Source: Pseudorhodoferax aquiterrae
Lineage (GTDB): Bacteria > Pseudomonadota > Gammaproteobacteria > Burkholderiales > Burkholderiaceae_C
DNA: 64,000 nucleotides
Assembly: GCF_014652235.1 (NCBI RefSeq)
Contig: NZ_BMYK01000002.1
Coordinates: 434,708-498,707, forward strand
Direction of reading: 5' to 3'
Shown here piece after piece: positions 13,871-52,180 of the stretch (position 1 is the stretch's first letter; each line of letters begins with the position of its first letter). A program made the translations under genes and the position numbers. The notes beneath the pieces were generated by a model. The model was not told the DNA's origin and ran no database searches. It saw nothing but the letters and a program-made list of their open reading frames with translations.

Positions 13871-14098
13871 CTCAGAAGCTGTGAATGAATCGATCAGGGT
13901 CACGACGGGGTACGCCGGGCCACAGGCGTAGGCGCAGGCCGCCGCCCGGGCTCGTGCCCGGGCAAGGACTGCAACGCCCGCCTGTGGCTTGGCGTGCCCC
14001 GGCCCGAAGGGCGAGGCCCCAGGGCGCGACGCTGACCATGGAAGCCGGCTTTCACGGGGCCTCGCGTGGCCGTGAGGGATTCGTTCACAGCTTCTCAG
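13871..14098. repeat. Structured dispersed repeat, copy A (228 bp, terminal inverted repeats)
   Basis: A near-duplicate of 51652-51881. The ends pair over about 21 bp: the left starts CTCAGAAGCTGTGAATGAATC and the right end is its near-perfect reverse complement. Inside, GCCACAGGCG (near 13919) pairs perfectly with CGCCTGTGGC (near 13978), capped by the hairpin GCCCGGGC-TCGT-GCCCGGGC. A third stem pairs GCGAGGCCCC (near 14011) with GGGGCCTCGC (near 14056). No reading frame looks genuine. It fills the gap between two convergent genes. Its right terminus CTCAG contains, on the minus strand, the TGA stop of the FAD oxidoreductase gene. Confidence 0.9.
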
Positions 14099-15210
14099 AC
14101 CGGCTGCAGCAGCCGCACCACCTGCTCGCCGATGGCCAGCGAGCTCGTGAGACCCGGTGATTCGATGCCGAACAGGTTGACCAGCCCCGGCACGCCATGC
14201 ACGGCGGGGCCTTGCAGCACGAAGTCGCGCGCCGGCTCGTGCGGCGCCTGGATTTTGGGCCGCATGCCGGCGTAGCCCGGCTGCAGCGCGCCATCGGGCA
14301 GGCCCGGCCAGTACTTGCGCACCTCGGCATAGAAGCCGTCGCCACGGCGCGGATCGACGACCAGGTCCTCGGGATCCTCCACCCATTGCACGTCGGGGCC
14401 GAACTTGGCCTGGCCGCCCAGGTCCAGCGTGAGGTGCACGCCCAGGCCGGCCGCCTCGGGCGCCGGATAGATCAGCCGCGTGAACGGCGCACGCCCGGCC
14501 AGCGTGAAGTAGTTGCCCTTGGCGAAATGGCTGGGCGGCACATGCGCCGGGTCCAGCCCCTCGAAGCGCAGCGCCAGCGCCTGGGCCGACAGGCCGGCCG
14601 CATTGACCACGGTGCCGGCCAGCAGCTCGGTGCCGTCCGCCATGGTCAGCACCATGCCCTGCGCCGTGCAGCGCGCCTGCGCCAGCGCCGTGTTCAGCGC
14701 CACGAGGCCGCCGGCGTTCTCGAAATCGCCCTGCAGCGCCAGCATCAGGCCATGGCTGTCGACGATGCCGGTGGACGGCGAATGGATGGCCGCCGTGCAG
14801 CGCAGCTGCGGCTCCATGGCGCGGGCTTCGTCGGCAGACAGCAGCACCAGGTCGTCCACGCCGTTGGCCGCGGCCTTGGCGACGATGCCTTGCAGCTGCG
14901 CGACCTGGGCTTGGTCGGTGGCCACGATGAGCTTGCCGCAGCGGCGGTGGGCAATGCCGCGCTCGGCGCAGTAGGCGTACAGCAGGGCCTTGCCGCGCAC
15001 GCACAGTTGCGCCTTGAGCGAGCCGGCAGCGTAGTAGATGCCGGCGTGGATGACCTCGCTGTTGCGCGAACTGGTGCCGGTGCCGATGGCATCGGCGGCC
15101 TCCAGCACCATGCACTCGCGCCGGGCGAAGGCCGGCGACAGCGCCAGCGCACGGGCCACGGCCAGGCCCACGACACCGGCGCCGATGACGACGCAATCGA
15201 CCCGGTCCAT
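14095..15210 (-). CDS. FAD-dependent oxidoreductase, L-2-hydroxyglutarate dehydrogenase-like (LhgO/DAO superfamily)
   Basis: 371 residues. A Rossmann dinucleotide motif G-A-G-V-V-G is at 10-15 in a DAO-type fold, followed by [14 protein letters not shown] near residue 50, characteristic of the L-2-hydroxyglutarate oxidase group. LhgO oxidises L-2-hydroxyglutarate to 2-oxoglutarate at the membrane. The exact substrate here is inferred by similarity only. The start ATG overlaps the stop of the upstream N-formylglutamate amidohydrolase gene, so both are on one message, which fits glutamate/2-oxoglutarate-linked catabolism. The TGA stop lies inside the terminal repeat of the adjacent structured element. 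Confidence 0.85.
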
Positions 15211-16058
15211 CACAGACTCCGCGGGTCGGTGGCCAGCAGCAGCTCGACCAGCGAGCGCAGGTGGGCCTTCAGGCCTTCGGCGCCCGCGTGCAGGGCCAGC
15301 GTGTCCTCGTCCATGTAGAGCTTGCGGTTGATTTCGAGTTGTACGCTGTGGCGCTGCTGTGCCGGGTCGCCATAGCGGCGCACGAGTTCGACGCCCTTGT
15401 AGGGATGGTTGTAGGCCACGTCGTAGCCCAGGCCGCGCAGGTGCTCGACGATGCGGGCAGACAGCGCGGCAGCGGCCGTGCTGCCGTCGCGGTCGCCGAC
15501 CACGAAGTCGGCATGGGCCAGGCCCGGGAAGTCGGTGGCGAAGCGCGAGGCCACGGCCGGCATGGAGTGGCAGTTCAGGTGCAGGCTGTAGCCGTGCCGC
15601 GCATGCGCGGCGTCGATGGCGGCCTTGACCGCTGCGTGGTACGGCTGCCAGCAGCGCGCGATGCGCGCCTGCACTTCGGCCACCGTGAGCTTGCGCGCGT
15701 ACAGCGGCGTGCCCTCGTCGGTGGTGCGCCAGATCAGCCCCTTGCCCAGGCGCACCTTGGACAGCACGCGCGCATCGGTGGCCACGGGCCCGGGCCAGGG
15801 CGCATCGAGCAGCGCCTGGTCGATCTCGGTCAGGTCGCGGTTGGCATCCAGGTAGCTGCGCGGAAACAGCGCCTCGACCCAGGCCACGCCCAGGGCCGGC
15901 GCGAAGTCGTAGAGTTTCTCGACGTGGGTGTCTTCGGCGCGGCGCAGCACCAGGGGGTCGCAAGCGTGGTCGAAATCGGCCGGATAGGCCGTGCCGCTGT
16001 GCGGCGAATCGAGAACCAGCGGGGTGGTCCCCGCGGTGGTGAGAAGAGCGGAGAACAT
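15210..16058 (-). CDS. N-formylglutamate amidohydrolase family protein
   Basis: 282 residues with the family pattern: the N-terminal S-P-H-S-G-T-A-Y-P loop, [11 protein letters not shown], and the metal-site segment N-C-H-S-M-P near residue 160, then D-R-D-G and [10 protein letters not shown]. The family hydrolyses N-formyl-L-glutamate to formate and glutamate, the last step of one histidine-degradation route, but no other hut gene is nearby. It overlaps the following FAD oxidoreductase gene by one base (TGATG), pointing to a two-gene operon. Confidence 0.88.
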
Positions 16059-16211
16059 GGGCCGGCATTGTGCAGCAGGGCGTTGCGTGGCCGCGCTCGC
16101 AGGTGCATCGGCCTGCCGTCCTACGGCCACGGAACCAAACATGGAATACTTGTATCCCTCAAGCGGGGCCCGTGCCGGGGTGTCCTGTCGTACACACCGA
16201 TGAAGGTTCCG

Positions 16212-51051: not shown

Positions 51052-51651
51052 TTATCCGGCCGCGCCCAGGTCCGGGTTGGCCTGCCACTGCAAGTCCCAG
51101 GCGCCCGCACGCCAATTCTGCAGCCACAGCGCGGCGCTCAGGGTCTTGGCGTCGGTGACCGTGCCGTCGCGGCACCAGGCCAGCAGTTCGTCCACGCTGG
51201 CGCTGAAGACCTCGAGGAACTCGCCCGCGTCGAGGTGGCGCTCCTGCAGCGCGAGGCCGCGCGCGAACCAGATCTCGATGAACTCCGTGGAATAGGAAAT
51301 GACCGGATGCAGCACGCCGGCCTTGGCCCACTCGCGCGCCGTGTAGCCGGTCTCTTCCAGCAGTTCGCGGCGACCGCAGGTCCAGGTGTCCTCGCCGGCA
51401 TCGAGCTTGCCGGCCGGGAACTCCACCATCACGCGCCCCATGGGGTGGCGGTACTGGCGCTCCAGCACGATGCGGCCATCGTCGAGCAGCGGAACGACCA
51501 TCACGGCGCCCGGGTGCACGATGAACTCGCGCGTGTCGCTGCCGCCATCAGGCAGGCGCACGGTGTCGCGCAGAACCTGCAGGAAACGGCCGCGCAGCAG
51601 TTCCTCGCGCTGCACGGTCTCCTCGATGAGGTGGTCGTCGCCGGTGGTCAT
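51052..51651 (-). CDS. NUDIX hydrolase, ADP-ribose pyrophosphatase-like
   Basis: 199 residues from the ATG at 51651. The NUDIX box is complete: G-K-L-D-A-G-E...R-E-L-L-E-E-T-G (residues ~88-108). The flanking P-A-G before the box is typical of ADP-ribose or nucleoside-diphosphate sugar pyrophosphatases, which hydrolyse ADP-ribose to AMP and ribose 5-phosphate. The ATG directly abuts the left terminus of the structured repeat (copy B), so its ribosome-binding region lies inside the element. An in-frame GTG at 51684 within the element would add 11 residues. Its place at the end of the nuo operon is common in beta-proteobacteria. Confidence 0.9.
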   Translation of the reverse strand: MTTGDDHLIEETVQREELLRGRFLQVLRDTVRLPDGGSDTREFIVHPGAVMVVPLLDDGRIVLERQYRHPMGRVMVEFPAGKLDAGEDTWTCGRRELLEETGYTAREWAKAGVLHPVISYSTEFIEIWFARGLALQERHLDAGEFLEVFSASVDELLAWCRDGTVTDAKTLSAALWLQNWRAGAWDLQWQANPDLGAAG

Positions 51652-51881
51652 CTCAGAACGTGTGAATGAACCGATCGCGCCCACGACGGGGTGCGGCGGG
51701 CCGCAGGCGTAGGCGCAGGCCGCAGCCCGGGCTCGTGCCCGGGCAAGGACTGCAACGCCCGCATGCGGCCTGGCGCGCCCCCGGCCCGAAGGGCGAGGCC
51801 CCGGGCGCGACGATCATGATGGAAACAGGAGCTCATTGGGGGCCTCGCGTGGATGTGAGCGGTTCGTTCACACGTTCTCAG
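51652..51881. repeat. Structured dispersed repeat, copy B (230 bp, terminal inverted repeats)
   Basis: The second copy of the element at 13871-14098. The left end starts CTCAGAACGTGTGAATGAACC and the right end is its near-perfect reverse complement. The terminal stem, the internal GCCCGGGC-TCGT-GCCCGGGC hairpin, and the stem GCGAGGCCCC/GGGGCCTCGC are all retained. Bases that differ from copy A change on both sides of a stem. It separates the NUDIX gene from the upstream DUF2818 gene: its left end abuts the NUDIX ATG and its right-terminal CTCAG contains the TGA stop of DUF2818. No open frame inside it looks genuine. Confidence 0.9.
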
Positions 51882-52180
51882 TGCCGGTGCTTCAGAAGGT
51901 AGCGCCAGACGAAGCCCGGAAAGGCCAGCGTCACGAACAGCGCGGCGGTCACGGCGTAGAACTCCCAGCCCTGGGGCGCGATGCGGCCCACGTTGCGTTC
52001 GAGCAGCAGGCCCAGAATGCCTACCAGCAGGTAGTAGACCAGCAGCTCCAACAGCCGCCAGGCCAGGCCCTTGCCCTGTGCGAGCCGCAGCGCCAGGAAC
52101 AGGCGCTGCGTGAGGAACGGCAGATTGGCGGCCACCACGGCCGCCAGGATCACGAGCCAGACCGCCGCATCGGGCGCCAA
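51878..52180 (-). CDS. DUF2818 small membrane protein, TTG start
   Basis: 100 residues with three hydrophobic helices (about 5-20, 43-63 and 73-93). DUF2818 proteins follow nuoN in many beta-proteobacteria and are suspected of a role around complex I, without proof. No ATG starts the frame. TTG at 52180, one base after the nuoN stop, is the only reasonable start, implying translational coupling to nuoN. The TGA stop at 51878 lies within the end of the repeat element. Confidence 0.88.
   Translation of the reverse strand: MAPDAAVWLVILAAVVAANLPFLTQRLFLALRLAQGKGLAWRLLELLVYYLLVGILGLLLERNVGRIAPQGWEFYAVTAALFVTLAFPGFVWRYLLKHRH

Follow-up and report, generated by a model that had tools for sequence, protein, structure and literature searches.

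Short palindromic sequences between genes are commonly regarded as IS remnants or as repeats of the REP type. Bacterial IS MITEs (IS5- and IS630-type) have interiors that are normally particular to one IS family. The elements analyzed here resemble these MITEs in having inverted ends, a short target duplication, no transposase and many copies and, as in MITEs, their ends resemble an IS in a few genomes; unlike in MITEs, however, the sequence, structure and length of their interior are conserved even where the ends differ. ERIC/IRU elements are also long imperfect intergenic palindromes, with IS630-like TA targets, but by description they are set apart from the present class by sequence, length and hosts. 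Integron attC sites have the box consensus GTTRRRY/RYYYAAC, and this identity was rejected because the ends of the present elements (GTTCTCA and TCAGAAC) lack such boxes and the copies are dispersed. REP, BIME and REPIN sequences, as described in the accessible portions of PMC3116915 and PMC2817692, share with the present class inverted pairs of palindromic units, an extragenic location and a high copy number; by contrast, the present unit is several times longer, has a target duplication and has no link to a RAYT gene. A further REP/REPIN paper (PMC3733652), searched for genus names, contained none. In a literature search that covered few subscription journals, we found no paper with the architecture described below, and the sole possible precedent is the Beta-proteobacterial repeat element (BRE). 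The accessible part of PMC3110155 describes BRE as ∼90 bp long, GC-rich and mostly intergenic, present in Bordetella, Delftia, Acidovorax, Polaromonas and Rhodoferax, with partial copies of 40 to 60 bp and tandem repeats at some loci.

Results

The window is a 64,000-nucleotide stretch of the Pseudorhodoferax aquiterrae genome (G000; contig NZ_BMYK01000002.1, positions 434,708 to 498,707) and contains the element twice. Copy A (220 bp; 13875..14094, plus strand) has the ends GAAGCTGTGAATGAATC..GATTCGTTCACAGCTTC. To its left is a TCA (13872..13874, without strand assignment) that is one half of a 3-bp target duplication and corresponds to a single TCA at this locus in the genome G004; the TCA to its right (14095..14097, minus strand) is the other half and, at the same time, supplies the in-frame TGA stop for the minus-strand reading frame 14095-16068. 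The conserved core of copy A, which is the tip of arm 1, spans 13916..13992 on the plus strand (converted from the match of covariance model R1 at G000:C2:448623-448699). The mini-hairpin GCCC-GAA-GGGC, the fourth junction arm, spans 14002..14012 (plus strand) and has CC/GG closing pairs in 16/16 aligned relatives, and a shortened arm 2 (GAGGCCCC..GGGGCCTC) spans 14013..14063 (plus strand). Copy B (222 bp; 51656..51877, plus strand; ends GAACGTGTGAATGAACC..GGTTCGTTCACACGTTC) has its core, again the tip of arm 1, at 51697..51773 on the plus strand (R1 match G000:C2:486404-486480, converted). Its left TCA (51653..51655, without strand assignment) lies 1 base away from the CAT start codon (51649-51651) of a gene that we take from its sequence to be NUDIX-like, and its right TCA (51878..51880, minus strand) combines target duplication and TGA stop of a 100-aa minus-strand reading frame (51878-52180). 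Copy B thus sits between the TGA of the 100-aa gene and the start codon of the NUDIX-like gene.

A sequence-only reading had described the two copies as aligning almost end to end; they lie at the positions that it gave, and the alignment has 196 identical columns of 234. The features that it listed, i.e., a terminal inverted repeat in both copies, a middle stem capped by GCCCGGGC-TCGT-GCCCGGGC, a GCGAGGCCCC/GGGGCCTCGC stem and paired, compensatory differences between copies A and B, are all found in the sequence. The end pattern of the element matches the window without mismatch at four places, all inside copies A and B, and with up to three mismatches five matches are found compared to 0.39 expected in shuffles. 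Neither copy (220 to 222 bp) contains a reading frame of ≥100 aa, in line with the earlier statement that no transposase lies inside the element.

Two lines of evidence support that both copies are insertions. First, locus B is empty in the same-genus genome G004, which reads GGTCAT-CTCAG-TGCCGG with one CTCAG compared to two in the window and with flanks that are 94% identical, and it is also empty in G001, G002, G003 and G005. G002 to G005 have no copy at locus A, where in G001 the right flank alone aligned. Second, among the complete copies in the P. aquiterrae genome, the left TCA is present in 44/44 and the right TCA in 43/44; the bases outside the TCA vary, with C before it in 37/44 and G after it in 37/44. 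Together, the single CTCAG at the empty site and the TCA flanks identify TCA within cTCAg as the duplicated target. It is well supported that the copies are mobile and non-autonomous and that they duplicate their target, a 3-bp TCA. The element lies in cTCAg with the TCA doubled, has inverted ends of ∼18 bp or more and is too short for a transposase. From the alike flanks of two loci (L097 and L098), at least one insertion is apparently common to G000 and G004.

The element is dispersed, as had been proposed from the two copies. In the 7.1-Mb genome (94 contigs), a similarity search lists 41 matches, one of which is a short match inside another copy, and a search with the right-end pattern adds further copies, giving a total of at least 47 loci, i.e., 46 de-duplicated copies, 44 of them complete, and one more at C3:93237-93462. 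The 44-copy set used throughout is without the partial copies L064 and L066, and C3:93237-93462 was never added to it. Two subfamilies can be told apart by their ends, GAAGC and GAACG. A sister of copy A on contig C41 is 98% identical to it and has different flanks, which points to recent movement. At one locus (L021; G000:C7:185493 and 186466), two copies lie <1 kb apart on the same strand, and a 121-bp remnant of subfamily A (L064; G000:C2:545194) has kept only the right end. As for membership among MITEs, the copies have terminal inverted repeats and a target duplication, with an empty site at both window loci and in line with the flanks of the 44 copies, and they are short, transposase-free and numerous.

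In 37/44 complete copies, a neighboring minus-strand frame uses the right TCA as its in-frame TGA stop (counting frames of ≥90 codons with coding-like third-position GC), and all copies in the genome have one orientation relative to the TCA, i.e., in core orientation the sequence is TCA and never TGA. The 37/44 stop-codon positions are an excess (rough P 1e-5). However, among the CTGAG sites of the window that are at stops or outside coding sequence, 11/21 are gene stops, a figure that rests on crude gene calls and includes the two insertions. Stop-codon targeting as a special mechanism is weakened by this count. Because eligible CTGAG sites are often gene stops anyway, target preference together with selection may explain much of the stop-codon placement. 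These two factors leave the fixed orientation unaccounted for, and this orientation is unexpected for a symmetric TNA target.

By DNA similarity, each of the five same-genus genomes contains the element. G010 and G012, from two other genera, gave weaker matches that have the same architecture with other ends; weak matches in G019 and G035 are without the appearance of the element. To reach further relatives, we used R1, a covariance model of the 77-nt core built from 15 sequences. With the own genome included, R1 matches 106/200 family genomes at E 1e-4 and 26/274 class genomes at E 1e-6; per-genome core counts from R1 searches are lower bounds, as scoring covered up to 23 or 17 places in a genome, respectively. 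A core pattern scan of named genomes gave at least 117 stretches. Among the matches listed are Delftia, Acidovorax, Polaromonas, Variovorax, Xylophilus, Pelomonas, Rubrivivax, Methylobacillus and Sulfuritalea as well as Stenotrophomonas, Lysobacter, Thioalkalivibrio, Halothiobacillus and one contig labeled Desulfovibrionaceae. The lengths of the relatives are narrowly distributed: among 128 distinct elements with ends found (from 147 oriented end rows), 81 are 263 to 269 bp and 11 are 158 to 163 bp, and among the 62 with a duplication-like flank, the corresponding numbers are 44 and 5. At 28 class-level loci, the ends are 262 to 273 bp apart in 12 and at other distances in 13, and three have none.

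Some individual loci illustrate the settings in which relatives occur. A single-core element in G020 (L104:1501-1578) lies inside a run of 12 tRNA genes, flanked by tRNA-Trp (1343-1418) and tRNA-Cys (1676-1756). A TGA-flanked element of 427 bp (L299; G010:C7:86500-89000) seems to hold a complete element with other ends (GGGCCTGTTCACAC), and thus seems to be a nested insertion. The window element has no match in plasmid records or phage records, and neither do the relative L175 in plasmids and the relative L198 in phages. The relatives L193 and L383 each match one plasmid record, with no annotated feature under either match. A plasmid-borne relative on the Comamonas odontotermitis plasmid NZ_CP083452.1 (L410:2501-2772) is intergenic and unannotated, and its neighbors are genes called SMR family transporter and organic hydroperoxide resistance protein. 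Viral contigs scanned with the core pattern gave 0 exact matches.

The taxonomic distribution bears on whether the entire class might be identical with the BRE of Hot et al. 2011. As far as the available description in PMC3110155 goes, BRE is like the present class in taxa, GC content, intergenic location and a size near that of the core arm, and the taxa overlap in that the core scan matches Delftia, Acidovorax and Polaromonas. However, four core words are absent from the main text of PMC3110155, which does not contain the BRE sequence, and in its accessible part BRE is described, as tandem at some loci, without ends, target duplications, two-core architecture or a junction. We consider full identity a real possibility but lean against it. 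BRE may instead be a fragment of the present element class (PMC3110155), a possibility missing from the sequence-only reading, which named no fitting family.

The element consists of a terminal stem and then a junction with three arms. Arm 1 carries the core AAGGCGC..GCC[hairpin]GGC..GCAACG and is followed by a mini-hairpin (CCC..GGG) and by arm 2. In 55 elements, the terminal stem is ≥95% Watson-Crick at 17 of the first 18 positions, and this pairing is partly built in because the end finder demanded near-complementary ends. In alignment A3, 16 diverse elements fold as a four-way junction in which the four junction-closing pairs are identical in 16/16 and no unpaired column lies between arms. 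A3 comprises 16/18 diverse candidates; L156 and L184 were left out and are outside the 16/16 claim, and in an alignment of all 18, L156 is out of register and has the stronger core in its other arm. RNAalifold on whole elements gives 96 consensus pairs, 81 of which have a compensatory change. For the core, 20/30 pairs are changed on both sides in alignment A1 (a plain alignment), 96.2% are paired, and both-side changes number 47 vs. 10.9. In alignment A2 (137 distinct rows from a search of 100 chosen sources), 93.1% of cells are paired vs. 65.2% in shuffles and 29 to 41% with slid partners, and 1070 cells are changed on both sides vs. 331; A2 is fitted to the model and so leans towards it, and the shuffles leave relatedness in. 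Compensatory changes have preserved the structure of the interior in element types that differ in their ends. The earlier proposal that the fold is under selection is borne out by many copies with covariation in A1, A2 and the whole-element alignment; the opposite outcome, i.e., only two copies and no covariation, is clearly contradicted.

Many relatives have a second, inverted core in arm 2. In 33/33 core pairs, the left core is on the plus and the right core on the minus strand, and the gap between them is 26 to 30 nt in 32 pairs and 51 nt in one. No partner core was found for 77/143 core matches, and in the 221-bp form of the window, arm 2 is without a core match in the six own-genome copies examined. 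Inverted core pairs of this kind are also what makes REPIN-like elements, with the core as a REP hairpin and mobilized by RAYT (a single-strand Y1 transposase), worth considering; a single-strand target would also suit the fixed orientation at TGA. Moreover, each of six genus genomes has one Y1_Tnp gene (L340-L345), which in the loci read is upstream of a gene that we take to be gltB-like. However, no significant core was found within the ∼3.3-kb loci of Y1_Tnp genes (best E 0.69). Y1_Tnp is similarly present in high-copy genomes (16/20, one below the curated cut-off) and no-hit genomes (14/17), and is therefore neither needed nor linked. Finally, the target duplication and the IS-like ends fit DDE transposases. 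Because there is neither linkage nor correlation, RAYT was rejected as the mover, and we consider this explanation very unlikely.

Strong covariation would also be expected if the elements were a structured regulatory or small RNA family (terminator, 3'-UTR stabilizer or sRNA) kept for the benefit of the host. In line with this, wobble pairs on the core strand favor G-T (131) over A-C (35), although the model tolerates G-U and may inflate this asymmetry; the elements are at gene 3' ends, with a convergent gene stop ≤25 bp away on the other side in 15/44 copies; and in Bordetella pertussis, an sRNA region contains a possibly related BRE repeat according to the accessible part of PMC3110155. Four observations argue against a host-beneficial RNA. 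First, congeners are without copies at both window loci. Second, transcription that runs on from the abutting gene into the 37 stop-codon copies would yield RNA complementary to the core strand, and it is on the core strand that the wobble preference was measured, mostly in other genera. Third, in two-core elements, wobble favors each core's own strand (25:3 in arm 1 and 27:13 in arm 2); accordingly, the asymmetry was rejected as proof of RNA. Fourth, no Rfam family is matched at the gathering threshold: the window gave 0 matches at the gathering score, and the best sub-threshold match was to the miRNA precursor model MIR904 (29.1 bits vs. a cut-off of 80, E 3.2e-4). On balance, we regard a host-beneficial RNA as unlikely.

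Relatives with GA(A/G) ends often have equal 3-bp TNA flanks; among the 37 with TNA on both sides, 27 are equal vs. 11.4 in shuffles (largest 21). Relatives flanked by CTA|G..C|TAG are consistent with a TA target, but flank shuffling cannot tell a fixed TA from element sequence, and we treat TA duplications as putative. A joint duplication criterion is passed by 62/128 relatives vs. 30 on average in shuffles. Transposases were searched in ten genomes and presumably are of the IS630 and IS5 types, names that rest on Pfam matches PF13358 and PF01609. The ends of a G162 IS630-type element agree with those of a single-core element of the same genome at 19/23 and 18/23 positions, those of a G010 IS630-type element with elements of other genomes at 13/18 and 11/18, and those of a G046 IS5-type element, flanked by TTA at either end, with L184 from a different genome at 16/18 and 15/18; these pairs were picked after looking. 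In the P. aquiterrae genome, we found no IS with the ends of the element (GAACGTGTGAAYGAACC) and no match to PF13340. The two IS5-type copies of this genome agree with copy B at only 10/18 end bases (shuffle P 0.013); TTA and TCA follow their ends, in keeping with the TNA rule. These copies (L357 and L363, in the first 480 bases of contigs C15 and C16) break contigs, and at another locus (L017; G000:C55:96-323), an element copy adjoins sequence resembling the end of the genome's own IS5-type element (AGGGTGTATCTGAAAT). G012, with at least 23 cores, has no PF01609 or PF13358 match, and among the collected loci, no convincing autonomous pair of IS length with the ends of the element was found, two pairs being chance-like.

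Discussion

Here, we describe two ∼221-bp elements in P. aquiterrae and propose, with a probability of roughly three in four, that each is a non-autonomous, IS-mobilized, MITE-like element whose structured module is conserved across end types. The sequence-only reading had correctly seen a dispersed, transposase-free element with a selected structure, but had overlooked its class membership, IS-like ends and target duplication. It is well supported, as a pattern, that the copies are members of a widespread class in which the ends change and the folded interior persists; the cause may lie in the mechanism suggested below.

We suggest that an IS5-type transposase making 3-bp TNA duplications recognizes the ends and moves the element in trans; IS630-type transposases, with TA as target, would serve other class members. 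The folded interior, i.e., a four-way junction that bears one core hairpin or two and varies little in length, would be needed for amplification or tolerance with any transposase. As a single strand or as a cruciform, the fold may bring the two ends together; alternatively, it may bind a junction-binding host protein. Copies would persist because insertion at the very end of a gene keeps the stop codon intact.

A bolder extension of the MITE-like reading is that the structured DNA module (mostly ∼265 or ∼161 bp) is a parasite of transposases that survives across wide evolutionary distances by taking the ends of unrelated IS of the IS5 and IS630 types, so that the fold rather than the ends is inherited and itself promotes mobility or tolerance. 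We put this forward as a speculative and rather doubtful idea.

Across Burkholderiales and in several genera of gammaproteobacteria, one architecture has been kept, with strong covariation, while those parts change that a transposase would be expected to recognize. If the proposed reading is true, these elements would provide a testable case for DNA (or RNA) shape as a selected part of a mobile element, and the covariance model could be used to annotate many unannotated loci. In that case, the class may also explain the BRE repeats in Bordetella.
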